Positions 8,847-24,730 of a stretch of 64,000 bases of DNA are shown here, piece by piece. The notes beneath the pieces are model-generated. The model did no database searches, had not been told where the DNA came from, and was given only the letters and a program-made list of their open reading frames with translations. Source of the stretch: Sphingomonas lacunae (GTDB taxonomy: Bacteria; Pseudomonadota; Alphaproteobacteria; Sphingomonadales; Sphingomonadaceae). Each line of letters opens with the position of its first letter. Position 1 is the stretch's first letter. The stretch spans positions 1,364,001 through 1,428,000 of the forward strand of contig NZ_CP053015.1 in NCBI RefSeq assembly GCF_012979535.1, written 5' to 3'. The position numbers and the translations under genes are program-made.

Positions 8847-8868
8847 GCTGTGGCAAAACGGCCACAGC
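8847..8868. promoter_or_regulatory. palindromic operator upstream of first TonB receptor
   Basis: A perfect inverted repeat, GCTGTGGC-AAAACG-GCCACAGC, lies about 140 bases before the receptor start. A -10-like TAAAAA (8872-8877) lies 17 bases from the left TGTGGC half-site, so the palindrome spans the -35 to spacer region. The core TGTGGC-N6-GCCACA recurs before the second receptor (15037-15062). The remainder of 8708-9005 holds only a small hairpin just after the M23 gene (AAGCGG-GTG-CCGCTT, 8706-8720) and a GC-rich leader. Confidence 0.65.
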
Positions 8869-9005
8869 TGGTAAAAATGGACCCCCGCCAAGGCCCTTGT
8901 CCCTTTACTCCCCCGGCCTGAACGGCCAATCGTGCACGAATCCGGACGACCGCGCTCTGAGCGTGCGCCGTTCAGGGGGAAGTAACCAGACAAAGGAACT
9001 GGACT

Positions 9006-12000
9006 GTGAAGACATCACGCATCGCGCAATTCAAGGCGGGCTCCGCCCCGCTGGTGCTCGGTTTGGCACTCATTGCCTCGCCGGCATTCGCTCAGGATGC
9101 GGCCGAAGACGAATCGAATCAGGACATCGTCGTCACCGGCTCGCTCATCACCAACCCGAACCTTGAGCAGGCTCAGCCTGTCACGGTCGTCGGCGCTGAA
9201 GAAATTGATCTGCAGCAGTCGAACGTCGCCGAAGAACTGCTGCGCGAACTGCCGGGCGTCACCCCGTCGGTCGGCTCGGCCGTTAACAACGGCAACGGCG
9301 GTGCGTCGTTCGTCAACCTTCGTGGTCTCGGCTCGAACCGCAACGTCGTCCTGATTGACGGCTATCGTCTGGCTCCGGCTGAACTGAACGGCCGTTTCGA
9401 CCTTAACAATATTCCGCTGGCCCTGATCGAGCGCGTCGACCTGCTGACCGGTGGTGCTTCGACCACCTATGGTGCCGACGCTGTTGCCGGTGTTGTCAAC
9501 TTCGTCACCCGTCGCAACTTCTCGGGTCTCGAAGTCAACCTGTCGAACCAGCTGACCGAAGAAGGCGACGGCCACACCATCCGTGCTGACGTCACCATCG
9601 GCGCCAACTTCGACGACGGCCGCGGCAATGCCGTGTTCAGCATTGGCTATCAGCAGTCGGACCCTGTCTATCAGGGCGCTCGTGACTATGGCCGCTTCGG
9701 CCTCAGCTCGGCTTCGGGCGGCGGCGGCGGTTCGGGTACGGCTGTGCCTTCGCGCTTCACGCTGGGCACCGGCGGCACCCGTCAGATGCTCGAAGATGGC
9801 TCGGCCTTCTCGGGTGTTTCGCTGTACCGCAACTTCAACTTCAACCCGTACAACGTGTATCAAACGCCGTTTGAGCGTTACAACATGTTCGGCGCTGCCA
9901 ATTATGAAATCAGCGACGCTGTTGAAGTCTACACCCGTGGCATCTTCTCGAAGAACACGGTTGACACCATCATCGCTCCGTCGGGTTCGTTCGGCGTTGC
10001 GGTTCAGGTGCCGATCAACAACCCGTTCCTGACCACGGCCATCCGTAACAGCTTCTGTAACGGCAATGGTATCTCGGCTGCCGACTGCGCCGCCGCTGCC
10101 AACCCGGCCCTGCGTCCGGGCGATGCCGCCTACCGTCAGGTCACTTCGGCTCTGTTCCGTCGTGCCACCGAAGTGGGTCCGCGTATCAGCGAATACACCA
10201 CCACCTACTTCGACTATCGCCTCGGCTTCCGTGGCGGCGTGACCGACACGATCAACTGGGATGTCAGCGGTTCGTACGGCCAGTCGGAAAACCTGCAGCA
10301 GATCAAGGGTTATACCCTGAACTCGCGCGTTCGTGACAGCTTCCTTGCGTCCAACACCACGAGCTGCTTCAGCGGCACGGCTGCTGGCTGCGTTCCGATC
10401 AACTGGTTCGGTCCGGAAGGCAACTCGAGCTGGACGCCTGCGGCTATCGACTTCCTCAATGAAGTTTCGACCGTTCGCACCACTTCGACCCTGGCCCAGG
10501 CCCGCGCCACCCTGAATGGTGACTTTGGCGTCGCCAGCCCGTTCGGCAGCGATCCGATCTCCTTCGCCGTTGGTGGTGAGTATCGCGAATATTCGGCTGC
10601 TCAGAACTCCGACCTCCTGGCCGCCGGTGGCGACCTTGGTGGTGCAGGTGGTGCGGCTCCGAACATCGACGGTGGTTACAACGTCTATGAAGCCATCGGC
10701 GAAGTCATCATCCCGCTGGTCCAGGATCGTCCGTTCTTCCAGGATCTGACCATCGAAGCTGGTATCCGTTACTCGAGCTACAGCATCGACGCGCCGACCA
10801 GCCCGTCGTACAACACCACGACCTGGAAGGTCGCTGGTAGCTGGACTCCGGTCGACGGTATCAAGTTCCGCGGTAACTATGCCCGCGCCGTCCGCGCTCC
10901 GAACATCGCCGAGCTCTTCTCGCCGGTGAACACGGGCCTGACCAACCTGGCTGACGATCCCTGCGCCGTGTTTGACGACGCCGGTGTCCGCATCCGTGCC
11001 AACCCGACCGGTGAACTGCGCGCAGTCTGCTTGGCTCAGGGTGCAACGGCTTCGACCATCGACAGCATCGCCCAGCCGATCGCCGGCCAGGCGAACTCGA
11101 CGGGTGGTGGTAACCTCAACGTTGGTCCGGAAGTCGGCAAGACATGGACCGTCGGTGCGGTGTTCGAACCCGACTTCGTGCCGGGTCTGACCATGACGGT
11201 TGACTACTACAACATCACCATCACGGGTGCGATCACCTCGCCGACCCCGGGTGATGCCATCTCGGCCTGCTTCGGCACCAACCCGACGTCGCCGGCTGCC
11301 GGTGCTTCGGCCACCGACGCCTGCCGCATCATCCGTCGTGACCCGCTGACCGGCGGTCTCAACGGTGACCCGAACACGACCCCTGGTCTGTTCCTGTCGC
11401 TGTCGAACCTCGGCCGTCTGGAAGCCAGCGGCATTGACTTCCAGCTGAACTACACCCGCGACATCGGCTTCGCCGACCTCAGCGTGGCTGGCGTTCTCAA
11501 CTGGCAGGAAACCTCTTCCTTCCAGTCGGCTCCTGGTGGTTATGTCCGTGACTGCGTCGGCTACTTCTCGTCGAACTGCGGTCAGCCGACTCCGGAAATC
11601 CAGTGGTCGGTCCGCACCACCCTGTCGTTCGAATCGTTCGACGTGTCGCTCCTGTGGCGCCACATCGACGGCACGGTCTACGAAGGTCAGGCTGCTGACT
11701 TCGCTGCCCGTGGTTTCGCCGCCAGCGGTCGCGCCCTGTTCAACGGCACGCTGCCGGCTTCGGCTGGTTCGCTCGCCGGCACGCAGGAAAACTTCACCAC
11801 CATCGGTTCGGCTGATTACTTCGACCTGACCGCTCGCGTGAATGTGAACGACAACCTGACCATCGTTGGCTCGGTCCAGAACCTGTTCAACACTGCTCCG
11901 CCGCTGGTGGGTGGTGAAGCCGGTTCGACCTCGTTCAACAGCGGCAACACCTTCCCGTCGACCTACGACTCGCTGGGTCGCCGCTACGTGCTGAGCGCGA

Positions 12001-12014
12001 AGATCCGCTTCTGA
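9006..12014 (+). CDS. TonB-dependent receptor (first of a paralogous pair)
   Basis: This 1002-residue outer-membrane receptor starts at a GTG, with AAGGA 9 bases upstream. A 30-residue signal peptide ends A-F-A-Q, followed by a TonB box (Q-D-I-V-V-T-G). The plug domain includes V-N-L-R-G-L-G-S-N-R-N-V-V-L-I-D-G-Y-R and the beta-barrel ends in the usual aromatic C-terminus (L-S-A-K-I-R-F). It imports an unidentified ligand using TonB/ExbBD energy. Codons are strongly biased (GGT, CGT, TCG, CTG, few rare codons) compared with neighbours, suggesting very high expression. Its own operator and a strong terminator flank it. Confidence 0.95.
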   Translation: MKTSRIAQFKAGSAPLVLGLALIASPAFAQDAAEDESNQDIVVTGSLITNPNLEQAQPVTVVGAEEIDLQQSNVAEELLRELPGVTPSVGSAVNNGNGGASFVNLRGLGSNRNVVLIDGYRLAPAELNGRFDLNNIPLALIERVDLLTGGASTTYGADAVAGVVNFVTRRNFSGLEVNLSNQLTEEGDGHTIRADVTIGANFDDGRGNAVFSIGYQQSDPVYQGARDYGRFGLSSASGGGGGSGTAVPSRFTLGTGGTRQMLEDGSAFSGVSLYRNFNFNPYNVYQTPFERYNMFGAANYEISDAVEVYTRGIFSKNTVDTIIAPSGSFGVAVQVPINNPFLTTAIRNSFCNGNGISAADCAAAANPALRPGDAAYRQVTSALFRRATEVGPRISEYTTTYFDYRLGFRGGVTDTINWDVSGSYGQSENLQQIKGYTLNSRVRDSFLASNTTSCFSGTAAGCVPINWFGPEGNSSWTPAAIDFLNEVSTVRTTSTLAQARATLNGDFGVASPFGSDPISFAVGGEYREYSAAQNSDLLAAGGDLGGAGGAAPNIDGGYNVYEAIGEVIIPLVQDRPFFQDLTIEAGIRYSSYSIDAPTSPSYNTTTWKVAGSWTPVDGIKFRGNYARAVRAPNIAELFSPVNTGLTNLADDPCAVFDDAGVRIRANPTGELRAVCLAQGATASTIDSIAQPIAGQANSTGGGNLNVGPEVGKTWTVGAVFEPDFVPGLTMTVDYYNITITGAITSPTPGDAISACFGTNPTSPAAGASATDACRIIRRDPLTGGLNGDPNTTPGLFLSLSNLGRLEASGIDFQLNYTRDIGFADLSVAGVLNWQETSSFQSAPGGYVRDCVGYFSSNCGQPTPEIQWSVRTTLSFESFDVSLLWRHIDGTVYEGQAADFAARGFAASGRALFNGTLPASAGSLAGTQENFTTIGSADYFDLTARVNVNDNLTIVGSVQNLFNTAPPLVGGEAGSTSFNSGNTFPSTYDSLGRRYVLSAKIRF

Positions 12015-12044
12015 TCCTTCGGACCAGAAACGACCACAATCAGG

Positions 12045-12074
12045 AGGGGCGGACAGCAATGTCCGCCCCTTTTG
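12045..12074 (+). terminator. intrinsic terminator after first TonB receptor
   Basis: A perfect 11-bp stem AGGGGCGGACA / TGTCCGCCCCT with a four-base loop (GCAA) is followed by TTTT. It begins 31 bases after the receptor stop. Confidence 0.9.
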
Positions 12075-12174
12075 GCTTGGTTGAGATTTCAAGGCGGAAA
12101 TGAAACTGACCCGACCGAAAACCGGTCAGCCACAGGCAGCGAAACCTCCTGCCGCACTAGGAAAATGTTGGCCT

Positions 12175-13206
12175 TCAGCTGACCAAGGCGTGTGGCAGGG
12201 TCATCGCAATGCCCGCCCGGTCGGCAACGGCGTGCGCCCAATGTTCGACCTTGTCGATTTCATCACCATGCGCCGCTTCCGCGGCCTGACGCTCGGCGGC
12301 TCGGTCCGCTGCTGAAAACCTCTGCCCGGATTTGCTGTGTCGGGTGAAGGCTGGCCCATCCGCCACTTCCGCCGCCACCTGCGCACCCATCGGCAGGGCA
12401 AACAGCCTCCCCGTCGCCTCGACAACTTCGGCGGTTCGTCCGGTCAACAGGTCAGAATTCAGCGTCGCCATCTGGGCCGGCCCAAATTGTCCGGCAAAAC
12501 GATGAAACATCGCATGCTGGGCCAGCCAACCCACGGCTGCCACTTGCAGGTCAGTCAACCGGAAATAGTCTCGGTCCTCAAATCCCAGCTGCACCGCGCC
12601 CTCACGCAACAGACCCTCCAGCAATTCACGAACCCACAGCCTGCACCACAAGCCCTTGCGTGCGACGGAAGAGAGGAACTGACGCAGGGGGGCGTGCAGG
12701 AGCACCGCCCGACTTTCTGGGCGAAGGGCCATGATTGCCGGGATCAGTCCGTTGACGATGTTCGACGGCTTGATCGCCACCGCATGCGTATCCGGCCAGC
12801 GGCGGCCCAGCAAATGCAACGCATCATCAGCCAGCCTGGCAATGTCGGCCCCGCGCATCTCTGCTCTGCGCCGGATACCCACTATGTCATTCAACAACAC
12901 CGGTTCGGACAGGCTCATCGCAAGGCCGGGCCTGTCCAGTCCTCTGGCCAACAGCGTTGACCCGCAAAAGGCCGAATGAAAAATGAAATGGACCGGGCCC
13001 GACAGGTGCCGCGCAGGTTCCGCCAATGCACTGCGCTCGATCCATTCGCCGGGCCGATCACCGACCAGTTCGTCGGTCAGAAACGGCCCTTGGCTGTGCA
13101 GTTGCTGGGGAACATGGCGAAACAGAAACCGGTCGCTCGAACGGTCATACCGGTGGGCCAGCCAAGTGGAGTCGGCCAGATCGAACGAAGGTGTACCCGC
13201 TGCCAT
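12175..13206 (-). CDS. sulfotransferase-like P-loop protein
   Basis: This roughly 343-residue protein starts at ATG 13206; a GTG at 13278 would extend it to within three bases of the divergent hydroxylase gene. A PAPS-type 5'-phosphosulfate-binding-like loop is seen (F-I-F-H-S-A-F-C-G-S-T-L-L-A-R, about residues 75-89), with downstream S-E-P and A-I-K-P-S-N elements as in distant sulfotransferase-fold proteins. The catalytic residues are not certain and the substrate is unknown. It is divergent from the TPR-hydroxylase and sits between two TonB receptor genes, which suggests a related function. Confidence 0.6.
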   Translation of the reverse strand: MAAGTPSFDLADSTWLAHRYDRSSDRFLFRHVPQQLHSQGPFLTDELVGDRPGEWIERSALAEPARHLSGPVHFIFHSAFCGSTLLARGLDRPGLAMSLSEPVLLNDIVGIRRRAEMRGADIARLADDALHLLGRRWPDTHAVAIKPSNIVNGLIPAIMALRPESRAVLLHAPLRQFLSSVARKGLWCRLWVRELLEGLLREGAVQLGFEDRDYFRLTDLQVAAVGWLAQHAMFHRFAGQFGPAQMATLNSDLLTGRTAEVVEATGRLFALPMGAQVAAEVADGPAFTRHSKSGQRFSAADRAAERQAAEAAHGDEIDKVEHWAHAVADRAGIAMTLPHALVS

Positions 13207-13281
13207 CAGCGCTGCTTGCCGCAGCTTTGCAATACTGGCAAGCCGCTTGGAAACAACGGATCGGAACGATAGAGACACGAT

Positions 13282-14451
13282 ATGGCATCCACACCGCCCC
13301 CAGCAGCCCTAGAGGCAAACAGCCGCGGCCTTGATGCCATGCGCCGTCAAGCTTTTGCCGAGGCAGCCTCCCATTTTCGTAAGGCACTGGAAGCTGACCC
13401 CACGGCCATCGGTCTTTGGGCCAATCTCGCCCATGCCTGCCGCGAAGCCGGGGATCCTGCCGGTGAACAAGCGGCACTGGAATCGGCTCTCGATCTCGAC
13501 CGCCGCAATATTCCCACGCTGATCAGGCTCGCCCAGTTGCATGAACGGTCGGGCCATGGCCGCGAAGCAATGATCCAGTGGGAAGCGCTCCTGCAACTGG
13601 CCAAGGGCATTGACAATCCGTCGTCTGAACTGCTGGCCCTCCTCGACCATGCGCGAAGCTATGTCGATCAGCACAAGGCCACGCTGGAACAGGGGCTTGC
13701 GCGGACCCTGCGCCAAAGCATAGCCGACCTTGACCCGACCGCGCGCCGCCGCGCCACCGCCTTTGTCGACCATTCACTGGGATTGCGGCCCATTTACACC
13801 AATGAATGCGCCGGCCTGTGCTATCCCTTTTTGCCGGCCGACGAATTTTTCGATGAATCCCATTTCCCCTGGTTCGCCGATCTAGCCGCTGCAACCGATG
13901 CCATCCGCGCGGAACTGCGCGCCCTGCTGGCCGATCCGGGCGATGCGCTGCGGCCCTATGTCAAACTCGATACGGGGACGCCGCAAAACAAATGGAGCGC
14001 GCTCGACAATCAGCTCGATTGGGGCGCCTGCTTCCTGTGGGAATATGGCCAACCCAACCAGCCGGTGCTTGATCGGTGCCCGGCCACTGCGGCGGCGCTT
14101 GCTGCTGTGCCTGCGGCGCACATTCCCGGTCGTGCACCCAGTGCTTTTTTCTCGATCCTCAAACCGCACACCCGCATCCCGCCGCATACCGGCGTCAGCA
14201 ACACGCGGGCGATCATCCATTTGCCGTTGATCGTTCCTGACCATTGCGGTTTCCGGGTTGGCGGCGAAACGCGGCCCTGGGTGGAGGGTGTGCCCTTCGC
14301 CTTTGACGACACCATCGAGCATGAAGCATGGAACGAAAGTGACGAAGTCCGTGCCGTTCTTATCTTCGATGTCTGGAACCCGCATCTCAGCCAGGCAGAG
14401 CAAAAGGTCATTGCTGATTATTATGCCACTGTTGATGATCTGGCCAGTTAA
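13282..14451 (+). CDS. TPR-aspartyl/asparaginyl beta-hydroxylase
   Basis: This 389-residue protein has TPR-like repeats at about residues 8-135 (A-x-x-x-F-R-K-A-L-E-A-D-P and W-A-N-L-A-H-A). A C-terminal Asp/Asn beta-hydroxylase domain follows. The two predicted Fe(II)-binding histidines are in P-P-H-T-G-V-S-N (H302) and I-E-H-E-A-W-N (H347), with the 2-oxoglutarate-binding R in V-R-A-V-L-I-F-D-V-W-N-P. Members hydroxylate Asp/Asn side chains in proteins. There is no signal peptide, so it is cytoplasmic. Its neighbours suggest a substrate connected with the adjacent receptors or a peptide ligand, but that is inference. Confidence 0.85.
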   Translation: MASTPPPAALEANSRGLDAMRRQAFAEAASHFRKALEADPTAIGLWANLAHACREAGDPAGEQAALESALDLDRRNIPTLIRLAQLHERSGHGREAMIQWEALLQLAKGIDNPSSELLALLDHARSYVDQHKATLEQGLARTLRQSIADLDPTARRRATAFVDHSLGLRPIYTNECAGLCYPFLPADEFFDESHFPWFADLAAATDAIRAELRALLADPGDALRPYVKLDTGTPQNKWSALDNQLDWGACFLWEYGQPNQPVLDRCPATAAALAAVPAAHIPGRAPSAFFSILKPHTRIPPHTGVSNTRAIIHLPLIVPDHCGFRVGGETRPWVEGVPFAFDDTIEHEAWNESDEVRAVLIFDVWNPHLSQAEQKVIADYYATVDDLAS

Positions 14452-14540
14452 TCGGGCAGAATCATTGCCTATGGCGCTTTGACTTGTTTCCACGCGGCCG
14501 CTGCATTATGGACATCACACACTTGCACCGGAGTCTCCCC

Positions 14541-14846
14541 ATGCGCATCCGCCTGTTGACCTGCCTTGTCCCGGCCATTGCGGCAACATTTGCTGCCGTT
14601 TCGCCAGCCGTTGCCACGGCACAGGCCGCACCAGCCACGCCGGCCAATGCCACGCCCGCCGCCCCCGCGACACCGGCCAATCCGGATGATGTCATTCGCT
14701 GCCGCAGCATGGAAGTGACTGGCTCGCTCGCCCGCCGAGAACGCGTCTGCAAGACTGTTGGCGAATGGCGCCGTCTCGCTGATCGCGGCAACGACACTGC
14801 GCGCGAAATCATCGATCACAGCCGCGGGCGCCCCAGCGGCATGTAA
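14541..14846 (+). CDS. small secreted protein of unknown function
   Basis: A 101-residue product starts at ATG 14541 (GGAG 8 bases upstream). It has a signal peptide ending near A-T-A-Q, then an A/P/T-rich low-complexity stretch (repeats of A-T-P-A-N). A C-terminal module follows: V-I-R-C-R-S-M-E-V-T-G-S-L-A-R-R-E-R-V-C-K-T, with two cysteines that could form a disulfide. The pattern C-R-x-x-x-V-T-G-S-x-x-x-x-x-R-V-C-x-T-x-x-E-W is familiar from small periplasmic alphaproteobacterial proteins. No function is known to me. It precedes the second receptor by 355 bases and has its own terminator. Confidence 0.75.
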   Translation: MRIRLLTCLVPAIAATFAAVSPAVATAQAAPATPANATPAAPATPANPDDVIRCRSMEVTGSLARRERVCKTVGEWRRLADRGNDTAREIIDHSRGRPSGM

Positions 14847-14885
14847 CGTTGAATGGCGGGCGTCTCGCCATGCCCGAATCACGCC

Positions 14886-14914
14886 AAAAAACTGCCATTA
14901 TGGCAGCGTTTTCA
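14886..14914. terminator. intrinsic terminator after the small secreted protein
   Basis: A stem CTGCC / GGCAG around ATTAT is flanked by an A-run on the left and TTTT on the right, so it could act in both directions. It separates the upstream gene from the second receptor's promoter. Confidence 0.6.
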
Positions 14915-15036
14915 GTCGCTTAGCGGGAACGAATTGCTCGTTCACGCAGGGTCAGCCGCGACAGCCGCTGCCTATCCAACTGGTTTAGATTGAAACTTTG
15001 TAACAACTGAACATCGGTTCATGAAATCATGTCACA

Positions 15037-15062
15037 CCAATGTGGCTACTGCGCCACATTGG
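15037..15062. promoter_or_regulatory. palindromic operator upstream of second TonB receptor
   Basis: A perfect 10-bp inverted repeat CCAATGTGGC / GCCACATTGG is separated by TACTGC. It contains the same TGTGGC-N6-GCCACA core as at 8847-8868. A -10-like TAAAAT lies at 15065-15070, 18 bases from the left TGTGGC, so the arrangement relative to the promoter is nearly the same as in the first receptor. The intergenic region 14847-15201 also contains a terminator (14886-14914) and a second inverted repeat. Confidence 0.7.
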
Positions 15063-15070
15063 GTTAAAAT

Positions 15071-15090
15071 ATGGCTTCAGATCAAGCCAT
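15071..15090. promoter_or_regulatory. second inverted repeat in the receptor leader
   Basis: ATGGCTT-CAGATC-AAGCCAT is a 7-bp perfect inverted repeat immediately downstream of the -10-like TAAAAT. It would lie at or just after the transcription start, so it could be an operator or a 5' mRNA hairpin. No equivalent is obvious in the first receptor's leader. Confidence 0.45.
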
Positions 15091-15201
15091 TACACTTTAC
15101 TCCTAACATCAGCGAAAGCACGGTCGCCCCAATCTGTTCCGGTAGGGTCAATTTTGCGTGCCCGGTACAGGGGGGAAGCCTAAAAATTAGGGGAACAAGC
15201 T

Positions 15202-18200
15202 GTGAAAATTTCGCGCATTTCTCGTTTCAAGACGGGCGTCGCTCCGCTCGTGCTTGGCGTCGCTCTGCTCGCCACTCCGACGATGGCTCAGGAAGCCCCG
15301 GCTGATGAAGAGGAAGCGCCTGCCGCATCCGCTTCGGCCGGCAACAACGACATTGTTGTCACCGGTTCGCGAATCCGTCGTCCGAACCTCGAATCAACCG
15401 TGCCGATTACCTCGATCAGCGGTGAATCCTTCATTCAGCAAGGTCAAACCAACATTGGTGACACTCTGAATGATCTGCCACAGCTGCGTAGCACCTTTGC
15501 CCAGCAGAACCCCGGTCTGGGTATCGGTATCGCTGGTCTCAATCTTCTCGACCTTCGCGGCTTGGGCACCCAGCGCACGCTGGTGCTGGTGAATGGGCGT
15601 CGTCACGTTGCGGCAGACATTCTCGCCAACGCTGTGTCGCCAGATATCAACACCATTCCGAACGATTTGATTGAACGCGTTGACATCGTCACCGGCGGCA
15701 ACTCGGCCATCTATGGTTCGGACGCCATCGCCGGCGTCGTCAACTTCGTTCTGCGTCGCAGCTATGAAGGGCTGCAACTGCGCGCTTCGGGTGGCATCAC
15801 CGAACAGGGCTTCGGCGGCAACTATTATGCGTCCGCCATGTGGGGCAAGAATTTCGCTGACGGTCGCGGCAACATCACCCTGCATGGTGAATATGCGCAC
15901 AGCGAACGTGTTTTCGCTTCGGACGTTGATGCTTTCCGCAGCAACGACAACTTCGGGGTTGTGGACACGGACGGCGGTGCGGGCATCGTCTTCGGTGGTG
16001 ACGGCGTGCCTGATCGCCGGTTCTTCCGTAACCTCAGCAGCACCACGATCCATTTCGCCGGTCTGATTCCGATCAACCAGCGCAACATTCCGGGTGCCGG
16101 TGCCTGTGGCAATGCGACCACGCCCAACAATGGCGCCCCCAACAATCTGGGTGCTGCGTTCAACTGCACGTACATTTTTACACCGGAAGGTCGCCTGATC
16201 CAGCAGACTGGCACCCGTTTCGGCACCGGCATCAACAGCGGCATTTATGACAGCAACGGCCAGACCGGTCGTGAAGGCAAGACTGTTTCGGTCCTGCCGT
16301 TCACCGAACGCTACAACTTCAACCTGCTGACGCGCTATGAATTCTCGCCGGCGGCCGAAGTGTTCCTTGAAGCCAAGTGGAACCGCGTCAACGCGCTGGG
16401 CAACAATGCCGGGCCGTCCTTTGTCCAGGGCACGGGCGGCACGGTTGACTTCCGTGAACGTCCCCGTCTCGACAACCCGTTCCTCAACCCGGCCGATCGT
16501 ACCACCCTTGCGAACCTCCTTCTCGCATCGGGTTGTCGCTCTGACTTGCTGGTTACCTGCCCGGCTGGCGGGAACCTGACCGCTACCGATATCACCAATA
16601 TCAACAACGGCAGCTATCGATTCGTTCTTGCGCGCAACCTGCTTGATGTCGGTTTGCGTGATGAGCGGTTCCAGCGTGATACCTGGCGCGTGGTTGGCGG
16701 CATCCGCGGCACGTTCAACACTGATTGGTCGTATGAGGTCTCGGCCAACTATGGCCAGTTCCGTGAAGATGTGACGACGAACGGCTTCATTGATCGTCAG
16801 CGCTTTGCCTTGGCGATGGATGCCGGTCGCAATCCGAATACCGGTCAGATCCAGTGCCGTTCGCAGTTTGACCCGGCATCGGCGGTCCAACTCGTCGGCT
16901 TTGCCGGCTCGGCAGCCACCAATGCTGCCCGTCTGGCTCAGGATATCGCTGCCTGCGTGCCCTACAATCCGTTCGGCACCCAGGACAATTCGGCCTCGGT
17001 CGCCTATTTCGCGCGTACCTTCACAGCCAACTCGGGCCTGTCGCAATTTGTCGGTTCCGCCTTCGTTTCGGGCGATACCAGCGGCTTCTTCAACCTCCCG
17101 GGCGGCCCTGTCAGCTTTGCTGTCGGCGCTGAATACCGCCGTGAAACGGCGTTCTACCGTCAGGATCCGTTTGTCACCGGTGGTTTCACCAATGGCGTCT
17201 CGATCCCTGCCTTTGAACCCCGTGCGTTTGACGTGAAGGAAGCCTATGGCGAATTGCGCGTACCGATCCTTTCGGACGTGCCCTTCTTCCATGAACTGAC
17301 CCTCAGCGGTGCCGCCCGTCTTGCCAAATATCAGGGCAATGTGGGTACGGTCTGGTCATATAATGGTGGTGTCGACTGGGCTCCGGCCGCAGACATCCGC
17401 TTCCGTGCCAACTACAGCCGCGCCGTCCGTGCTCCGAACGTGTCGGAAACCGGCTTCCCGCTGGTGCCGAACTTCTCGAACGGCTTCGTTGACCCGTGCA
17501 ACCCTGACCGTATTGGCACCGGCCTGCGTCAGCAGAACTGCTTGGCAGATATCGGCGCCGCCAATCTGGCGGGCTTCACCAATATCACCCAGTCGCTGCC
17601 GATCGTCAGCGGGTCCAACCCGAACCTGATTTCGGAAGTGTCGGATTCCTACACCATCGGTGTGGTGTTCCAGCCCAGCTTCATTCCCAACTTCAACCTG
17701 TCGGTCGACTTCTATGACATCACAGTGAATAACGTTATCGCGAGCATTGCTCCGAATACGTTGGTCAACCTGTGCTACGACACCCCGCGCCCGAACATCT
17801 TCTGTGGTCAGTTCGAGCGTTGGGCTGGTCCTGGCACGGGTCCGTTGGGTGAGCAGCCTGGTCGCCTTCTCGGCAACTCGCTGATCAATGCGCCGGTCAA
17901 CTTCGCCAAACGGGTCCGTCGCGGTATCGACGTCAACTTCAACTACCGCCGCGATCTCGGTTTCGTCGAGTTCAGCACCGATCTGGTCTACACCCACAGC
18001 CTGATCAACAGCAACTATCAGGACCCGACCCGCCCGAACTTCGAAACCCGTCTTCTGGGTCAGTTGGGCGATCCGAAGGACGAGTTCCGCTGGGACTTCA
18101 ACTTCAGCCGTGGACCGGTCACGCTGGGCTATCGTGCGCGTTACATCGGCCCGATGTTCTTCAACGGTTACAACACCCTGTTCCCGTTGAACGGTCTGGA

Positions 18201-18438
18201 TCCGACCGACGTCGATGCCTTCCCCGACACCAAGTTCCCTGCTGTCTGGTATCACGATCTGCGTATCGACTACGAAATTGACCGTGAAGGTGGCAATTCA
18301 TACCTGCTCTACGCTGGCGTCGACAACGTCCTCGACCGCGGCGTGCCGGCGGGTGCCACCACCGCTACCGGTTCGGGTAGCGCGATCTACTCGTTCCGCG
18401 GCCGAACCTTCTTCGCGGGCATTCGCGCCCGCTTCTGA
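15202..18438 (+). CDS. TonB-dependent receptor (second of the paralogous pair)
   Basis: This 1078-residue receptor starts at a GTG. Its signal peptide matches that of the first receptor at 20 of 30 positions, including F-K-x-G-x-A-P-L-V-L-G. It has a TonB box (N-D-I-V-V-T-G-S-R-I-R-R-P-N-L), a plug with D-L-R-G-L-G-T-Q-R-T-L-V-L-V-N-G-R-R, and an aromatic C-terminus (F-F-A-G-I-R-A-R-F). It belongs to the large outer-membrane receptor group common in sphingomonads. The ligand is unknown. It is flanked by the shared palindrome and a strong terminator. Confidence 0.95.
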   Translation: MKISRISRFKTGVAPLVLGVALLATPTMAQEAPADEEEAPAASASAGNNDIVVTGSRIRRPNLESTVPITSISGESFIQQGQTNIGDTLNDLPQLRSTFAQQNPGLGIGIAGLNLLDLRGLGTQRTLVLVNGRRHVAADILANAVSPDINTIPNDLIERVDIVTGGNSAIYGSDAIAGVVNFVLRRSYEGLQLRASGGITEQGFGGNYYASAMWGKNFADGRGNITLHGEYAHSERVFASDVDAFRSNDNFGVVDTDGGAGIVFGGDGVPDRRFFRNLSSTTIHFAGLIPINQRNIPGAGACGNATTPNNGAPNNLGAAFNCTYIFTPEGRLIQQTGTRFGTGINSGIYDSNGQTGREGKTVSVLPFTERYNFNLLTRYEFSPAAEVFLEAKWNRVNALGNNAGPSFVQGTGGTVDFRERPRLDNPFLNPADRTTLANLLLASGCRSDLLVTCPAGGNLTATDITNINNGSYRFVLARNLLDVGLRDERFQRDTWRVVGGIRGTFNTDWSYEVSANYGQFREDVTTNGFIDRQRFALAMDAGRNPNTGQIQCRSQFDPASAVQLVGFAGSAATNAARLAQDIAACVPYNPFGTQDNSASVAYFARTFTANSGLSQFVGSAFVSGDTSGFFNLPGGPVSFAVGAEYRRETAFYRQDPFVTGGFTNGVSIPAFEPRAFDVKEAYGELRVPILSDVPFFHELTLSGAARLAKYQGNVGTVWSYNGGVDWAPAADIRFRANYSRAVRAPNVSETGFPLVPNFSNGFVDPCNPDRIGTGLRQQNCLADIGAANLAGFTNITQSLPIVSGSNPNLISEVSDSYTIGVVFQPSFIPNFNLSVDFYDITVNNVIASIAPNTLVNLCYDTPRPNIFCGQFERWAGPGTGPLGEQPGRLLGNSLINAPVNFAKRVRRGIDVNFNYRRDLGFVEFSTDLVYTHSLINSNYQDPTRPNFETRLLGQLGDPKDEFRWDFNFSRGPVTLGYRARYIGPMFFNGYNTLFPLNGLDPTDVDAFPDTKFPAVWYHDLRIDYEIDREGGNSYLLYAGVDNVLDRGVPAGATTATGSGSAIYSFRGRTFFAGIRARF

Positions 18439-18519: not shown

Positions 18520-21099
18520 TCAGTCTACCACCATCATCAACGCACCATCGCCCTCATCGACCTTGATCGTAGCACCGTCGGGCACCTCGCCTTTCAGGAT
18601 CAGGTCGGCAAGCGGGTCCTGCAGATGACGTTGCACTGCACGTTTCAGTGGCCGCGCGCCATAGACCGGGTCATAACCGACCCGCCCCAGCCAGGCCCGG
18701 GCGCCATCGCTCAGTTCCAGCCTGATCTTGCGATCGGCGAGCAGCTTTTGCACCCGCTCGACCTGGATATCGACGATGCCGCCCATATGCGCCTGCGCCA
18801 GCCGGTGGAACAGGATGATCTCGTCGAGCCGGTTGAGGAATTCGGGGCGGAAATGCCCCCGCACCACATCCATCACCTGCTGCTCGACCTTGTCGACATC
18901 CTCATCTTCGCCAAGGCCGGCGATGAACTGGCTGCCGAGGTTGGAGGTGAGCACGATGATCGTGTTGGTGAAATCGACAGTGCGGCCTTGACCATCCGTC
19001 AGCCGCCCGTCGTCGAGCACCTGCAACAGGATGTTGAACACATCGCCATGCGCCTTCTCGACCTCGTCGAACAGCACGACCTGATAGGGGCGCCGCCGTA
19101 CTGCCTCGGTCAGCACGCCACCTTCCTCATAGCCGACATAGCCGGGAGGGGCGCCGATCAGCCGGGCGACGCTGTGCTTTTCCATGAACTCCGACATGTC
19201 GATACGGACCATCGCCGTGTCGTCATCGAACAGGAATCCGGCCAACGCCTTTGTCAGCTCGGTCTTGCCGACACCGGTCGGGCCGAGGAACAGGAAACTG
19301 CCGAGCGGCCGGTTCGGGTCCTGCAATCCGGCGCGTGAGCGGCGTACCGCCTTGGCAACCGCATCGACCGCATCCTTCTGACCGATCACCCGGCCACCGA
19401 TGATCTCTTCCATGCGCAGCAGTTTCTCGCGCTCGCCGGTCAACATCCGCTCCATCGGGATGCCGGTCCATTTGGCGACCACGGCGGCAATGTCATCGCC
19501 GGTCACTTCCTCGCGCAGCATCGCGCCTGCGGCTGCGCCTGCGGCCTCGGCCAGTTGCTTTTCGAGCTGGGGAATGCTGCCATATTGCAGCTCGCCGGCG
19601 CGGGCCAGGTCGCCGCTGCGTTGCGCCTGTTCAAGCGCCACCCGGGCGGCATCCAGTTCGGCCTTCAACGAGGCCTCGCCGGCAATCTTGTCCTTCTCGG
19701 CCTGCCAGCGCGTGGTCAGCTCGGCCGATTGCTGCTCCAGATTGGCGAGGTCGGCGCGCAAGGCGTCGAGCCGGTCCTTTGACGGCTGGTCGCTTTCCTT
19801 GGCCAGCGCCATTTCCTCGATCTTCAGCTGGATGATCCGCCGGTCGAGGACCTCAATTTCCTCGGGTTTGGATTCCACTTCCATGCGGATGCGGCTGGCC
19901 GCCTCGTCCATCAGGTCGATGGCCTTGTCGGGCAGGAAACGGTCGGAGATGTACCGGTTGCTCAGCGTCGCCGCCGCGACAATCGCCCCATCGGTGATGC
20001 GCACGCCATGGTGCAGCTCATATTTCTCCTTGAGGCCGCGCAGGATGCTGATCGTGTCCTCGACCGTCGGCTCGCCGACGAATACCGGCTGGAACCGCCG
20101 CTGCAACGCCGCGTCCTTCTCGACATATTTGCGATATTCGTCGAGCGTCGTCGCGCCAATGCAGTGCAGTTCACCACGGGCGAGCGCGGGCTTCAACAGG
20201 TTGCCGGCGTCCATCGCGCCTTCCCCCTTGCCCGCACCGATCAGCGTGTGCATTTCGTCGATGAACAGGACAACGTCGCCCTCGGCCGCCTTGACCTCGT
20301 CAAGCACGCCCTTGAGCCGTTCCTCGAACTCACCGCGATATTTTGCCCCGGCAATCAGCGCGCCCATGTCGAGCGCCATCAGGCGGCGGCCCTTCAACGT
20401 GTCGGGCACGTCGCCATTGGCGATGCGCAGCGCCAGTCCCTCGGCAATCGCCGTCTTGCCAACGCCGGGGTCGCCGATCAGCACCGGGTTGTTCTTGGTT
20501 CGCCGGGCGAGGATCTGCACGGTGCGGCGGATTTCCTCGTCGCGACCAATGACGGGATCGAGTTTGCCGCTCTCCGCCGCCTCGGTCAGGTCACGGGCAT
20601 ATTTCTTGAGCGCGTCATAGCGGTCCTCGGCGCCCGCCGTATCGGCGGTGCGGCCCTTGCGCAGATCGTTGATCGCGGCGTTGAGTGCTTGGGCGGTCAA
20701 GCCTGCTTCGGTCAGGATTTTGGCAACCGCCGTCCCCGACGCCATCAGCATGGCCAGCAGCAACCGCTCGACGGAGACAAAGCTGTCGCCCGCCTTTTCC
20801 GCGACCTGCTCAGCCTGATCGAGCAGGCGCACCAGATCATTGTCGACGCCGGGGCTTGCCTGTGCGCCACTGCCGCTTACCGCCGGCACCTTGGCCAGGG
20901 CGGCATCGACGCCCGCGAGCGCCATCCTGGCATTGCCGCCAGCCTTGGTGATCAGGCCTGCGGCCATGCCCTGCTCATCGTCAAGCAGTGCCTTGAGCAA
21001 ATGCTCCGGGCTGATCCGCTGGTGGTTCATGCGGATGGCAATGGTCTGGGCGGCCTGCAGAAAGCCCTTCGCGCGGTCGGTCAGTTTCTCGAGGTTCAT
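18520..21099 (-). CDS. clpB: ATP-dependent chaperone ClpB
   Basis: This 859-residue disaggregase reactivates aggregated proteins together with DnaK. It begins [18 protein letters not shown] with the Clp N-domain repeats. AAA domain 1 has Walker A G-D-P-G-V-G-K-T and Walker [11 protein letters not shown] coiled-coil M-domain lies at about residues 400-530, and AAA domain 2 has [12 protein letters not shown] and [11 protein letters not shown]. The length is normal. A sigma-32-like promoter is suggested upstream. Confidence 0.98.
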
Positions 21100-21160: not shown

Positions 21161-21190
21161 CTAGGTAGTGTTGCATTTGTGCAACACAAG
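21161..21190 (-). promoter_or_regulatory. possible heat-shock promoter of clpB overlapping a 20-bp palindrome
   Basis: On the minus strand CTTG (21190-21187) is followed after 18 bases by CTACCTAG (21168-21161), a loose match to alphaproteobacterial sigma-32 promoters. The spacer is almost entirely a perfect palindrome GTGTTGCA-N4-TGCAACAC (21168-21187). The palindrome may bind a repressor or activator. It also lies about 180 bases before the divergent TonB receptor, so it could control either gene. Confidence 0.45.
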
Positions 21191-21368: not shown

Positions 21369-23639
21369 ATGAAATTGTCGTTCGCATCCTTGCTGCTGAC
21401 CAGCTGCGCAGCTTTCTCTGTCCCCGCCTATTCCCAGGCCGTTGCCATACCGGCGGACGAAATGGCTGAAGCCGTCACTGATGACATTGTCGTTTTTGGT
21501 CGCGGCGAAACCCGGCAAGTTCAGGAAATCAGCGCGCAGGACGTCACCATCCTCGCGCCGGGCACCAGCCCGCTTAAGGCGATTGAGATGTTGCCGGGGG
21601 TCAATTTTCAGTCGGCCGATGCGTTCGGCACCTATGAATGGTCGCAGCGCATTTCGATCCGCAGCTTCAACCAGAATCAGCTCGGCTTCAATTTTGATGG
21701 CGTGCCGCTTGGTGACGGCAGCTACGGCAATCACAATGGCCTGCACATTTCCCGCGCGATCATCGCCGACAATGTCGGATCGGTCCGCGTGTCACAGGGT
21801 GCAGGTTCGCTCGGAACGCAGGCGACCAATAACCTCGGCGGCACGATTGAAACCTTTTCGTCGGACCCGCTGGGGGAAAGCGCCCTGCAAACCAATCTGA
21901 CCTATGGCAGCAACGAAACACTCAGAGGCTTTGTCCGGGCCGATTTCGGCAGTGACAATGGCGCATCGGGCTATGTCTCTGGTCTGTTGGGCAACAGCGA
22001 CAAATGGAAGGGTTTCGGCGAGCAGAACCAGCGCCAGGTCAACGCAAAACTGGTCGTGCCAGTTGACAACGTCAATCTTGATGCATGGTACAGCTTCTCC
22101 TTCCGCGCGGAGCAGGATTATCAGGATCTCTCGCTCGAACAGATTGGCCGTCTGGGCTATGACTGGGACAATTTCGGCGTCAATCAATATGATCTTGCAC
22201 TGCGCGTTGCAGATATCGCCAACAACCGTGGTGACACTGGCGCACCGGTCAGTAACGCTGCTGCCGGTACGGTCTATCCCGGTGCCATCATCAGCGTCGA
22301 TGACGCCTATCTGGATGCCGCCGGTATTCGCCGGGACCATCTCGCCTATGTCGGCGCCCATGGCGACATCGGTTCCAATGGTTCTTTCCTGCTCCGTGGC
22401 TATTATCACAACAACAAGGGGCAGGGCCTGTGGGGAACACCCTATGTGCCCAGTCCGTCGGGCGTGCCTTACTCCATCCGCACGACCGAATATGACATGG
22501 ATCGCACCGGAATTTTCGGTACATTGACCCTGCCCTTGGCCATGACCGAACTCACCGTGGGCGCATGGTATGAGAACAATGATTTTCGTCAGGCTCGCCG
22601 CTTCTACGGCCTGACCAGCCGCACGGACATTGGACGGAGCTTTCAGGAGTTCCAGGAAAATCCCTTCTTCACCCAGTGGGAATATGAGTTCAACACCGAG
22701 ACCCTCCAATATCATGTCGAAGACAAGATTGATCTCGGTGCATTGACGATCAACCTCGGCTGGAAGGGTTTCAGCGTCACCAACACCGCGACGCCTGTTG
22801 TTGCCGGCAATCTCGCGTCGGGCACGGTGAAGGTCGAAGACTGGTTCCAGCCGCATGTGGGCTTTGCCTTGGAACTGGGTGCCAATGCTGAACTCTTCGG
22901 CGGCTTTACCCAAGTCACCCGCGCTTTCGCTTCGGCGAGCACAACCGGACCCTTCGCGACGACTCAGGCCGGTTTCAATGCCATCCGCACGACATTGAAA
23001 CCCGAGGAATCGGATACCTATGAAGCCGGCATCCGCTACAATAGCGGTGCGTTCAACGGTGTGCTGGCGGCCTATTATGTCGACTTTCGCAACCGTCTCC
23101 TCGGCTTTGCCAGCGGAGCCGGCATCGTCGGCAACCCCGCTGTTCTCCAGAATGTGGGTTCGGTGCGTGCTGTCGGATTTGAAGCGGCTGGTGAAGTACG
23201 CCTTGGGGGTGGTTTCCGCCTTTATGCCTCTTATGCCTACAATGACGCGACCTATCGCAACGATGTCCGGAACGCTGCGGGCGTCCTGATTGCCGCGACC
23301 AATGGCAAGCGGGTTGTTGACTCGCCCGAACATATGCTCCGTGCAGAGCTTAGCTATGACTCGGATCTGCTGTTTGGCCGGATCGGTGCCAACCATATGT
23401 CGGAACGCTTTTTCAACTATGAAAACGACCGGTCGGTTGGCGCCCGTACGATCGTCGATGCAACGTTGGGCGTTCACCTCAGCGACCGGATCGAGTTCCA
23501 GTTGAACGTCACCAACCTGTTCGACGAAGAATATGTGGGGACCGTCGGGTCGAACGGCTTTGGTTCGCGCGGCGACAATCAAACCCTGCTCGCTGGCGCC
23601 CCGCGCCAGATCTTCGGCACGATCAAGGTCGGCTTCTGA
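21369..23639 (+). CDS. TonB-dependent receptor paired with PhoD-like phosphatase
   Basis: This 756-residue receptor starts at ATG 21369 with AGGGGG upstream. The signal peptide is followed by a TonB box-like D-D-I-V-V-F-G. The plug (I-S-I-R-S-F-N-Q-N-Q-L-G-F-N-F-D-G-V-P-L-G) and the barrel, ending I-K-V-G-F, are intact. It is a different subtype from the two larger receptors and lacks their signal-peptide motif. Its stop is two bases before the PhoD-like gene, so the pair is almost certainly cotranscribed. This points to uptake of a phosphorylated compound or its product, by context only. Confidence 0.94.
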   Translation: MKLSFASLLLTSCAAFSVPAYSQAVAIPADEMAEAVTDDIVVFGRGETRQVQEISAQDVTILAPGTSPLKAIEMLPGVNFQSADAFGTYEWSQRISIRSFNQNQLGFNFDGVPLGDGSYGNHNGLHISRAIIADNVGSVRVSQGAGSLGTQATNNLGGTIETFSSDPLGESALQTNLTYGSNETLRGFVRADFGSDNGASGYVSGLLGNSDKWKGFGEQNQRQVNAKLVVPVDNVNLDAWYSFSFRAEQDYQDLSLEQIGRLGYDWDNFGVNQYDLALRVADIANNRGDTGAPVSNAAAGTVYPGAIISVDDAYLDAAGIRRDHLAYVGAHGDIGSNGSFLLRGYYHNNKGQGLWGTPYVPSPSGVPYSIRTTEYDMDRTGIFGTLTLPLAMTELTVGAWYENNDFRQARRFYGLTSRTDIGRSFQEFQENPFFTQWEYEFNTETLQYHVEDKIDLGALTINLGWKGFSVTNTATPVVAGNLASGTVKVEDWFQPHVGFALELGANAELFGGFTQVTRAFASASTTGPFATTQAGFNAIRTTLKPEESDTYEAGIRYNSGAFNGVLAAYYVDFRNRLLGFASGAGIVGNPAVLQNVGSVRAVGFEAAGEVRLGGGFRLYASYAYNDATYRNDVRNAAGVLIAATNGKRVVDSPEHMLRAELSYDSDLLFGRIGANHMSERFFNYENDRSVGARTIVDATLGVHLSDRIEFQLNVTNLFDEEYVGTVGSNGFGSRGDNQTLLAGAPRQIFGTIKVGF

Positions 23640-23641
23640 TC

Positions 23642-24730
23642 ATGCGGCGTGATGTTTCGCGCCGCGCTGTCATCGCAGGGGCGGCAGCCAGTGCCGCCCT
23701 TGCCACTACCCCCTTGGCAGCGGCGCTGCCGGGGGGGCGCGCGCTTGCGGGCGAAGGGCGGGCACTGACCCGCATCGCTTTTGGTTCCTGTGCCCGTCAG
23801 GATAAGGATCAGCCCATTTGGGACGTGGTCAATGCCTGGCATCCTGACCTGTTCATCTTTCTTGGTGACAATATCTACGGCGATACCGAGGATATGGCTG
23901 TCATGCGGGCCAAATATGACATGCTCGCCGCCAAGCCCGGCTTTCGCACTTTGCGCCGCCAGAGCATGGTGATCGCGACGTGGGACGACCATGATTATGG
24001 CGTCAATGACGGTGGCAGCGAATATCCCAAAAAGGTGGAAAGCGCCGCGCTGTTCCTCGATTTTTGGGGTGTGCCGGCCGGGCATGAACGCCGCAGCCAT
24101 CCCGGCATCTATGGCAGCTACATGTTCGGACCAGAGGGGCGCCGGGTTCAGGTCATCCTGCCTGACAACCGCACCTTCCGAACGCCTTTGCTCGGCTATA
24201 GTGTCGAACCTGAGGACAAGGGCGGCTATGTCGTCAACCCAGATCCGCACGCGACGATGCTCGGTCAGGCGCAGTGGGACTGGCTTGAAACCGAACTGCG
24301 CCGGCCTGCTGATCTGCGCATTCTTGCCTCGTCGACCCAGGTCCTTCCTGACGCACCGGGTTATGAGGCGTGGATCAACTATCAGGCGGATCACCAGCGG
24401 CTGCTGGACCTGATCGATTTTGCTGCGGTCGACAATCTGGTCATCATTTCGGGTGACACCCATTATGCCGAACTGTCGCGGCTAGAGGAGCGTATGCCAT
24501 ATCCGCTCTTTGAACTGACCTCGTCCGGCCTGACCGAAGTCTGGCCGGTTTTTGGTCCCAATCGTCATCGCATGGCGCAGGCTCCATTGGCACCCAATTA
24601 CGGCCGCCTGACAATCGAATGGGACAGCATCGACCCCAAAATTATCATGGAAGTACAGATGCTTGATGGCAGCATCGCGATCCAGCATGCGGTCCCGTTC
24701 AGTGCCCTCAAGCAGGGGGCAGGTCGTTGA
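23642..24730 (+). CDS. PhoD-like metallophosphatase, Tat-exported
   Basis: This 362-residue protein has a twin-arginine signal (S-R-R-A-V-I-A-G-A-A). The PhoD-like metallophosphatase fold is indicated by A-F-G-S-C-A-R-Q-D, F-I-F-L-G-D-N-I-Y-G-D, A-T-W-D-D-H-D-Y-G-V-N-D and V-I-I-S-G-D-T-H-Y-A-E-L. These are the metal and nucleophile-bearing motifs of the family. It probably hydrolyses phosphomonoesters or phosphodiesters in the periplasm. It follows the TonB receptor stop by two bases and is likely translationally coupled to it. Confidence 0.92.
   Translation: MRRDVSRRAVIAGAAASAALATTPLAAALPGGRALAGEGRALTRIAFGSCARQDKDQPIWDVVNAWHPDLFIFLGDNIYGDTEDMAVMRAKYDMLAAKPGFRTLRRQSMVIATWDDHDYGVNDGGSEYPKKVESAALFLDFWGVPAGHERRSHPGIYGSYMFGPEGRRVQVILPDNRTFRTPLLGYSVEPEDKGGYVVNPDPHATMLGQAQWDWLETELRRPADLRILASSTQVLPDAPGYEAWINYQADHQRLLDLIDFAAVDNLVIISGDTHYAELSRLEERMPYPLFELTSSGLTEVWPVFGPNRHRMAQAPLAPNYGRLTIEWDSIDPKIIMEVQMLDGSIAIQHAVPFSALKQGAGR

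Follow-up and report, generated by a model that had tools for sequence, protein, structure and literature searches.

A TGTTGC-N6-GCAACA inverted repeat as predicted operator at outer-membrane genes and clpB in Sphingomonas lacunae and other Alphaproteobacteria

We describe an inverted repeat that recurs at outer-membrane genes and at clpB in Sphingomonas lacunae and its relatives. In a window of 64,000 nucleotides (nt) of this organism (contig NZ_CP053015.1, positions 1,364,001 to 1,428,000; the term denotes the whole stretch of DNA that was analysed), two perfect palindromes with the common core TGTGGC-N6-GCCACA precede the genes of two TonB-dependent receptors (TBDR), TBDR1 and TBDR2. Comparison of genomes shows this literal core to be one variant of a more general operator, TGTTGC-N6-GCAACA, and both palindromes are probably copies of that operator, serving one shared dimeric regulator of outer-membrane genes and clpB. 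The operator and its regulon are apparently class-wide. The relevant features of the window are listed below (lengths in base pairs, bp, or amino acids, aa).

8849 to 8866, no strand: operator copy 1, TGTGGC-AAAACG-GCCACA, begins 157 nt before TBDR1
8904 to 8910, plus strand: promoter-like element TTTACTC, starts 37 nt after operator copy 1
9006 to 12014, plus strand: TBDR1, TonB-dependent receptor, 1002 aa, GTG start
15041 to 15058, no strand: operator copy 2, TGTGGC-TACTGC-GCCACA, begins 161 nt before TBDR2
15096 to 15102, plus strand: promoter-like element TTTACTC (TBDR1-type promoter), starts 37 nt after operator copy 2
15202 to 18438, plus strand: TBDR2, TonB-dependent receptor, 1078 aa, GTG start
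18520 to 21099, minus strand: clpB, 859 aa
21163 to 21168, minus strand: CTACCT, -10-like element of the clpB promoter, abuts operator copy 3
21169 to 21186, no strand: operator copy 3, TGTTGC-ATTTGT-GCAACA, between clpB (minus) and TBDR3 (plus)
21187 to 21190, minus strand: CTTG, -35-like element of the clpB promoter, abuts operator copy 3 on the opposite side
21369 to 23639, plus strand: TBDR3, TonB-dependent receptor, 756 aa; starts 200 nt after the first base of operator copy 3

The literal core and the wider operator

Site 1 reads GCTGTGGC-AAAACG-GCCACAGC (8847-8868, 8-bp arms) and contains the 18-bp core TGTGGCAAAACGGCCACA, which starts 157 nt ahead of the GTG codon of TBDR1 (9006). Site 2 reads CCAATGTGGC-TACTGC-GCCACATTGG (15037-15062, 10-bp arms); its 18-bp core TGTGGCTACTGCGCCACA starts 161 nt ahead of the GTG codon of TBDR2 (15202). 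Both repeats are thus present as a preliminary description of the sequence had reported them, and a recount of the signal peptides of TBDR1 and TBDR2 gave the same 20 identical residues at 30 positions. A third such palindrome, TGTTGCATTTGTGCAACA (21169-21186), was overlooked in that description; it is located between the divergent genes clpB and TBDR3. The sites of the window were scored against TGTGGC-N6-GCCACA, and the reversed motif served as control in the counts over genomes. With at most two mismatches allowed, there are seven matches in the window, where 5.2 are expected; sites 1 and 2 are the only exact ones. They are also the only two exact occurrences in the whole 2.98-megabase genome, in which the reversed control does not occur.

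The literal core is not enriched among relatives, because its counts resemble those of the reversed control: it was found in 22 of 60 genomes of the genus (control, likewise 22 of 60) and family-wide in 86 of 298 genomes (control, about 70); for the genus, family and class scans, the numbers of control genomes were taken from printed tables. We therefore rejected it as a signature of the regulon and retained it as a minority variant. The scan of relatives, which had been proposed as a check, covered exact cores at 21 other loci of the genus (one per genome). In five of these, the core precedes an outer-membrane gene by 126-157 nt. Plug receptors are encoded by four of the five genes (L061, L067, L073, L075), among them a TBDR2 homologue from genome G329, and the fifth codes for a Gcw_chp protein (L063). 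At most of the remaining 16 loci the exact core lies inside a long reading frame.

What is conserved at orthologous receptors is the generalised site; the exact core, which the preliminary description had expected there, is confined to the window's own two receptors among the receptor loci listed. TBDR1 orthologues possess TGTTGCAAATACGTCACA about 172 nt upstream of the start, at a position matching that of the window site, and in TBDR2 homologues, sites similar to TGTTGCGAAAATGCAACA lie roughly 130 nt ahead of the matched stretch. Upstream regions were scored against TGT[T/G]GC-N6-GC[A/C]ACA with a cut-off of 11/12, which was reached in 20 of 20 TBDR1 loci (0.7% of shuffled upstream regions) and in 22 of 27 loci of TBDR2 homologues (0.5%). 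The scored TBDR1 set leaves out L138, whose contig offers only 123 nt of upstream sequence, and L145, a relative with 48% identity, which was tested separately and has no site; L136, also outside the set, has an 11/12 site at -172, so that the tally including L136 and L145 is 21 of 22. Partial receptor matches (L130, L140, L142-L144, L146, L175, L176) were left out of the counts of upstream sites.

Enrichment was observed for TGTTGC-N6-GCAACA, which occurs in 236 of 298 family genomes and in 83 of 96 genera, whereas the reversed control was found in 14 of 298 genomes. Thirty family loci were read: the gene beside the site is clpB in 14 and codes for a TonB-receptor-type protein in 10, for a Gcw_chp protein in one and for a Porin_O_P protein in one; the four others are L239, L253, L257 (TetR) and L264 (beside a gene for an extracytoplasmic-function, ECF, type sigma factor, by eye). 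Of the 26 loci with clpB or an outer-membrane gene, 15 were recognised by eye and 11 were run through Pfam, all agreeing: receptors or their beta-barrels were found in L237, L242, L246, L249 and L261, and ClpB domains in L240, L254, L256 and L263; L258 and L259 likewise agree. In a sample of the class, the operator is present in 103 of 289 genomes (control, 19 of 289). From 30 class loci, nine were picked by eye for Pfam, and six of them proved to be outer-membrane loci (Porin_4 in L266, L278, L282 and L283, OMP_b-brl in L268, Plug in L273); one contains ClpB (L291), and L272 and L276 gave no match. At L264 (genome G251), the copy of the operator lies between a histidine-kinase-like gene and the ECF sigma gene, which by eye resembles that of a general stress sigma factor.

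In the genome of S. lacunae itself, TGTTGC-N6-GCAACA occurs at four places (reversed control, none), and the degenerate form TGT[T/G]GC-N6-GC[A/C]ACA at six, every one upstream of an outer-membrane gene. The six targets are four TonB receptors, one Gcw_chp protein and one OmpA-family protein; outside the window, the distances from operator to start are 108 nt for receptor 766659-, 186 nt for the Gcw_chp protein and 107 nt for the OmpA-family protein. The site 200 nt before TBDR3 is common to the divergent clpB, and TBDR3 may or may not be a target of this copy. Two more receptors, 932430- and 1069958-, have 11/12 sites at -166 and -151. The common regulator of TBDR1 and TBDR2 that had been proposed is supported by these findings; the operator and the set of genes are broader than was then assumed.

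Three further observations concern the DNA around these genes. No Rfam family reached its gathering threshold in the window. A gene for a PhoD-like phosphatase (23642-24730) comes after TBDR3. Elsewhere in the genome, at 1732322-1732350 (L298/L299), three TGTGACA repeats follow one another at a spacing of 11 bp; they do not belong to this regulon.

Promoter arrangement at receptors and clpB

Promoter-like elements were picked by eye, and their distances from the palindrome were measured in 21 TBDR1 loci, in 19 of 27 TBDR2 loci and in eight of nine loci of receptors of the MKLKYLL type; left out were L155, L166-L168, L170-L172, L174 and L237, the last being nearly identical to L236. These distances stay fixed while the intervening DNA diverges. 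The element TTTACTC follows the palindrome at 37 nt in 19 of the 21 TBDR1 loci, at 38 nt in one, and is absent in one; at both window receptors the distance is 37 nt. In TBDR2 homologues the element is TTGTG, found at 47 nt in 16 of 19 loci, at 48 nt in one and at 57 nt in two, which have a spacer longer by 10 bp. Receptors of the MKLKYLL type show TTGTCA-N17-nTACT at 68 nt (six of eight), and the organism's own ompA has TTGCAC-N17-TAAGGC 17 nt from the palindrome. The series 17, 37, 47, 57 and 68 is close to one helical face, which would fit an activator bound upstream; we regard this argument as suggestive only. The sequences TAAAAA and TAAAAT, which the preliminary description had taken as the -10 elements of the two receptors, are indeed separated from the left half-site by 17 and 18 nt; they were dropped as -10 elements because orthologues do not conserve them.

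Two observations concern the leader regions. The 5' untranslated region of TBDR1 (window 8885-9010) can form a long hairpin, TTACTCCCC...GGGGGAAGTAA, of -48.8 kcal/mol (z -2.5 versus shuffles), and the fold of the TBDR2 leader is unremarkable (z -1.0 versus shuffles). At six loci of TBDR2 homologues (L150-L153, L160, L161), a CTGTCAGAAAATTTACATCA-like sequence, which was not seen in the window, is located between operator and promoter; it resembles the consensus of a Pho box.

The TBDR2 gene of S. lacunae differs from its homologues at the 5' end. In 26 of 27 homologue loci the signal peptide differs from that of the organism's own TBDR2, which has a TBDR1-like one and also a TBDR1-type promoter (TTTACTC at 37 nt). 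Identity between the two receptors is 42% across roughly the first 272 residues and 28% across a later stretch of 653 residues. A 5' cassette (window 14950-15201 plus 15202-15291) has therefore probably been exchanged between these distant paralogues, which would explain why their promoters look alike; TBDR2 seems to have taken over the promoter and signal peptide of the TBDR1 type, so that the shared palindrome of the window is partly due to common descent. In several named relatives, the genes for TBDR1, for a 367-aa protein and for an Asp/Arg hydroxylase-TPR protein share a neighbourhood with clpB. No TBDR2 separates the hydroxylase gene from clpB in L082, L083, L084, L088 and L093, and in L092 a TBDR2 homologue is located between TBDR1 and clpB. 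One could go further and ascribe the palindrome to the duplicated cassette only, with no regulator involved, and the TBDR1-like signal peptide and promoter of TBDR2, unlike those of 26 of 27 homologue loci, agree with such a view. It is, however, already contradicted by independent promoters: TBDR2 homologues with a promoter of their own possess the operator too, as do unrelated genes across the genomes of family and class. We consider a mere duplication very improbable for these reasons.

At clpB the arrangement is a different one. In 16 loci (14 from the family, one from the class, and the organism's own at window 21163-21190), the palindrome constitutes the entire 18-bp interval between CTTG and YYANNT; immediately before it stands CTTG (15 of 16 loci), immediately after it YYANNT (16 of 16). 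CTTG-N18-YYANNT resembles an RpoH promoter, whose consensus consists of CTTG and a CTATNT-like -10 element separated by 17-18 bp. With the palindrome in the spacer of such a promoter, binding there would clash with the polymerase. The exact fit, together with the fact that the promoter spacer is a known place for operators of the MerR type, could suggest that the regulator is a dedicated MerR, TetR or other repressor of clpB, for which the outer-membrane genes are secondary targets; moreover, a TetR gene adjoins the site in one family locus (L257). We judge this rather unlikely, as the outer-membrane sites lie far upstream at fixed distances, which suits an activator, and as the 30 family loci show no repeated occurrence of a gene for such a regulator next to the site.

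Several findings weigh against one operator and one regulator for all these genes. Within the S. lacunae genome, 30 of the 36 plug-bearing receptors have no site of at least 11/12 within 500 nt upstream; therefore the operator is not a general receptor switch. The loose form TGTNRC-N6-GYNACA is not enriched there (13 places versus 20 for the control), and two further matches of TGTNGC-N6-GCNACA, of eight such places in total, appear inside reading frames. The site of receptor 766659- is not obviously in helical phase with a promoter, and the phasing argument as a whole is weakened and suggestive only, because the elements were chosen by eye and the loci were measured in part (19 of 27 TBDR2 and eight of nine MKLKYLL-type loci). 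The nearest relative of TBDR1 (L082, 82% identical) keeps only a decayed site at the corresponding position. Among the named relatives, a 12/12 operator (with loose half-sites) precedes clpB in five of the 10 loci that hold the clpB start, and exact TGTTGC-N6-GCAACA is absent from four genera (g2, six genomes; g66, five; g77, five; g24, three).

Candidate regulators

Five literal spellings of the motif gave no match in the text of 5.39 million open-access papers; this is a weak test, as sequence logos are not text and subscription papers are mostly outside. By their ends TGTG and CACA, the inverted repeats recall a site of the CRP/FNR type. Such a site, TGTGA-N6-TCACA, comprises 16 bp, and the half-sites TGT[T/G][G/A]C with TGT-N12-ACA make up 18 bp, which is two base pairs longer; in addition, the majority of sites read TGTTGC. 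The spacing thus bears out the preliminary description, which had set the core apart from the CRP site, and an assignment to the CRP/FNR family has hardly any probability left.

A regulator such as ChvI, or another response regulator of the OmpR type that acts on the envelope, is in our view improbable, if somewhat less so, as regulators of the OmpR type generally bind direct repeats. CenR, for example, uses TGA-N8-TGA (PMC9275681). What speaks for ChvI is that, in Caulobacter crescentus, its top target is the promoter of a TonB receptor (chvT) and its motif TTGC-N3-GCAA shares the TTGC and GCAA half-sites with the operator (PMC9731502). The spacing of that motif is N3, though, and not the N6 of the three window sites, and neither clpB nor porin is mentioned in the main text of that report (PMC9731502). 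The IclR-type regulator PheR of Sphingobium sp. SHPJ-2, likewise a sphingomonad, requires GCAACG, which is near the half-site GCAACA, and its mutant shows an increase of about sevenfold in tonB, exbBD and several TonB receptors (PMC13273656). The same paper describes a single GCAACG element in a protected stretch of 44 bp and a catabolic operon for phenanthrene as the main target, with no link to clpB or porins seen there (PMC13273656). The half-sites of the window, GCCACA and GCAACA, do not match this element, and a regulator of catabolism would hardly be expected across a whole class, which leaves very little room for an IclR-type regulator. UzcR (CATTAC-N6-TTAA; PMC8963506), CenR (PMC9275681) and HigX (ATGTTASC-GSTACCAT; PMC13384398) are alphaproteobacterial regulators of the envelope or of TonB receptors, too; their sites differ from the operator in sequence and geometry. 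By sequence comparison, none of the sites published for ChvI, CenR, UzcR, HigX, PheR and NtrX matches the operator.

NtrX, which is a response regulator of the Fis type and belongs to the NtrYX envelope system, leads the candidates all the same, albeit tentatively and with evidence both ways. If it were the regulator, which is possible but doubtful, a dimer would bind the palindrome and also act at its own ntrYX promoter. In the three window sites, TGT and ACA are exactly 12 bp apart, which agrees, by geometry only, with the Fis-type box TGT-N12-ACA. This is the geometry of the PpsR/CrtJ and TyrR boxes (TyrR box TGTAAA-N6-TTTACA), whose proteins are both DNA binders of the Fis type. The operator shares with these boxes the TGT and ACA ends, the length of 18 bp and the N12 spacing; it differs from them in its inner bases TGC/GCA and in its targets, outer-membrane genes and clpB.

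The upstream regions of ntrY provide further arguments. The organism's own ntrC-ntrY gap contains TGTTGCCGCGATGGCACA (shuffle p 0.007). In 21 ntrY upstream regions the matrix scores exceed those of shuffles with a combined p of 7e-15, which is uncorrected for shared ancestry, and the commonest ntrY matrix score was reached by 2% of 356 control windows. TTG-N8-CAA, the inner spacing of the operator, is the commonest of the spacings 2-14 and occurs in nine of the 21 regions (1.0 in shuffles). However, CAA-N8-TTG is equally common (nine of 21), the nine regions with TTG-N8-CAA stem from three genera, including g2 and g66, which are devoid of the exact operator elsewhere, and the own ntrY region has no TTG-N8-CAA. 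At the ntrY genes of L344 and L348-L351, two TTG-N8-CAA units spaced 22 bp apart stand directly before ntrY, where they apparently overlap the core promoter.

NtrYX regulates the envelope in Rhodobacter sphaeroides (PMC7240162), and the published NtrX sites are CAA-N3-5-TTG for Brucella and S. meliloti (PMC9223101) and GCA-N9-TGC for R. sphaeroides (PMC7240162). NtrX is an autoregulated envelope regulator that is present in the alphaproteobacterial genomes checked, and a motif-like sequence stands before ntrY in the case studied here; its published sites have the half-sites in opposite order and another spacing, and the TTG-N8-CAA of the operator matches neither form (PMC9223101, PMC7240162). 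GCA-N9-TGC was found in nine of 21 ntrY upstream regions (2.0 expected) and CAA-N3-5-TTG in four of 21 (2.75 expected).

The distribution of Fis-type proteins is likewise ambiguous. A search with the HTH_8 profile found such proteins in 28 of 28 genomes. NtrX shows up as the sole Fis-type protein in two reduced and incomplete genomes with porin sites, G500 (79% complete) and G570 (84%); a third, G602, has NtrX plus a Fis. But G369, which is congeneric with G500 and 91% complete, has two Fis-type (HTH_8) proteins, and therefore the solitary NtrX of G500 may reflect a gap. Furthermore, the recognition helix of NtrX is the same in the readable loci of site-rich genomes (six of seven) and site-free genomes (12 of 13), which speaks against NtrX; this comparison leaves out G210 and G001 (of 20 loci).

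Predicted mode of action and its meaning

From the site sequences, locations, conservation, enrichment and distances given above, we infer the following scheme, in which the binding of the regulator, its dimerisation, whether it activates or represses a given promoter, and the promoter elements used are predictions. A dimeric regulator would bind the 18-bp inverted repeat at outer-membrane genes and at clpB. At the outer-membrane genes it would likely activate from upstream, because the site keeps fixed distances on about one helical face; at clpB, where the site fills the 18-bp spacer between CTTG and YYANNT, binding would likely block or reshape the promoter. The predicted outcome is that the production of outer-membrane proteins and the amount of the disaggregase ClpB are coupled. 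In its widest form, which we put forward as a speculation with less chance of being right than wrong, an outer-membrane regulon would extend across the Alphaproteobacteria: NtrX or an undescribed regulator would activate porins, OmpA and TonB receptors and repress clpB from within its heat-shock promoter spacer, such that a single envelope signal sets both.

If a subset of receptors, porins and OmpA were under one transcriptional switch, a coordinated remodelling of the outer membrane would be accounted for. The operator offers a defined handle on this apparently class-wide outer-membrane regulon, and a way towards finding its regulator. The arrangement at clpB, finally, would tie the state of the envelope to the rescue of proteins in the cytoplasm.

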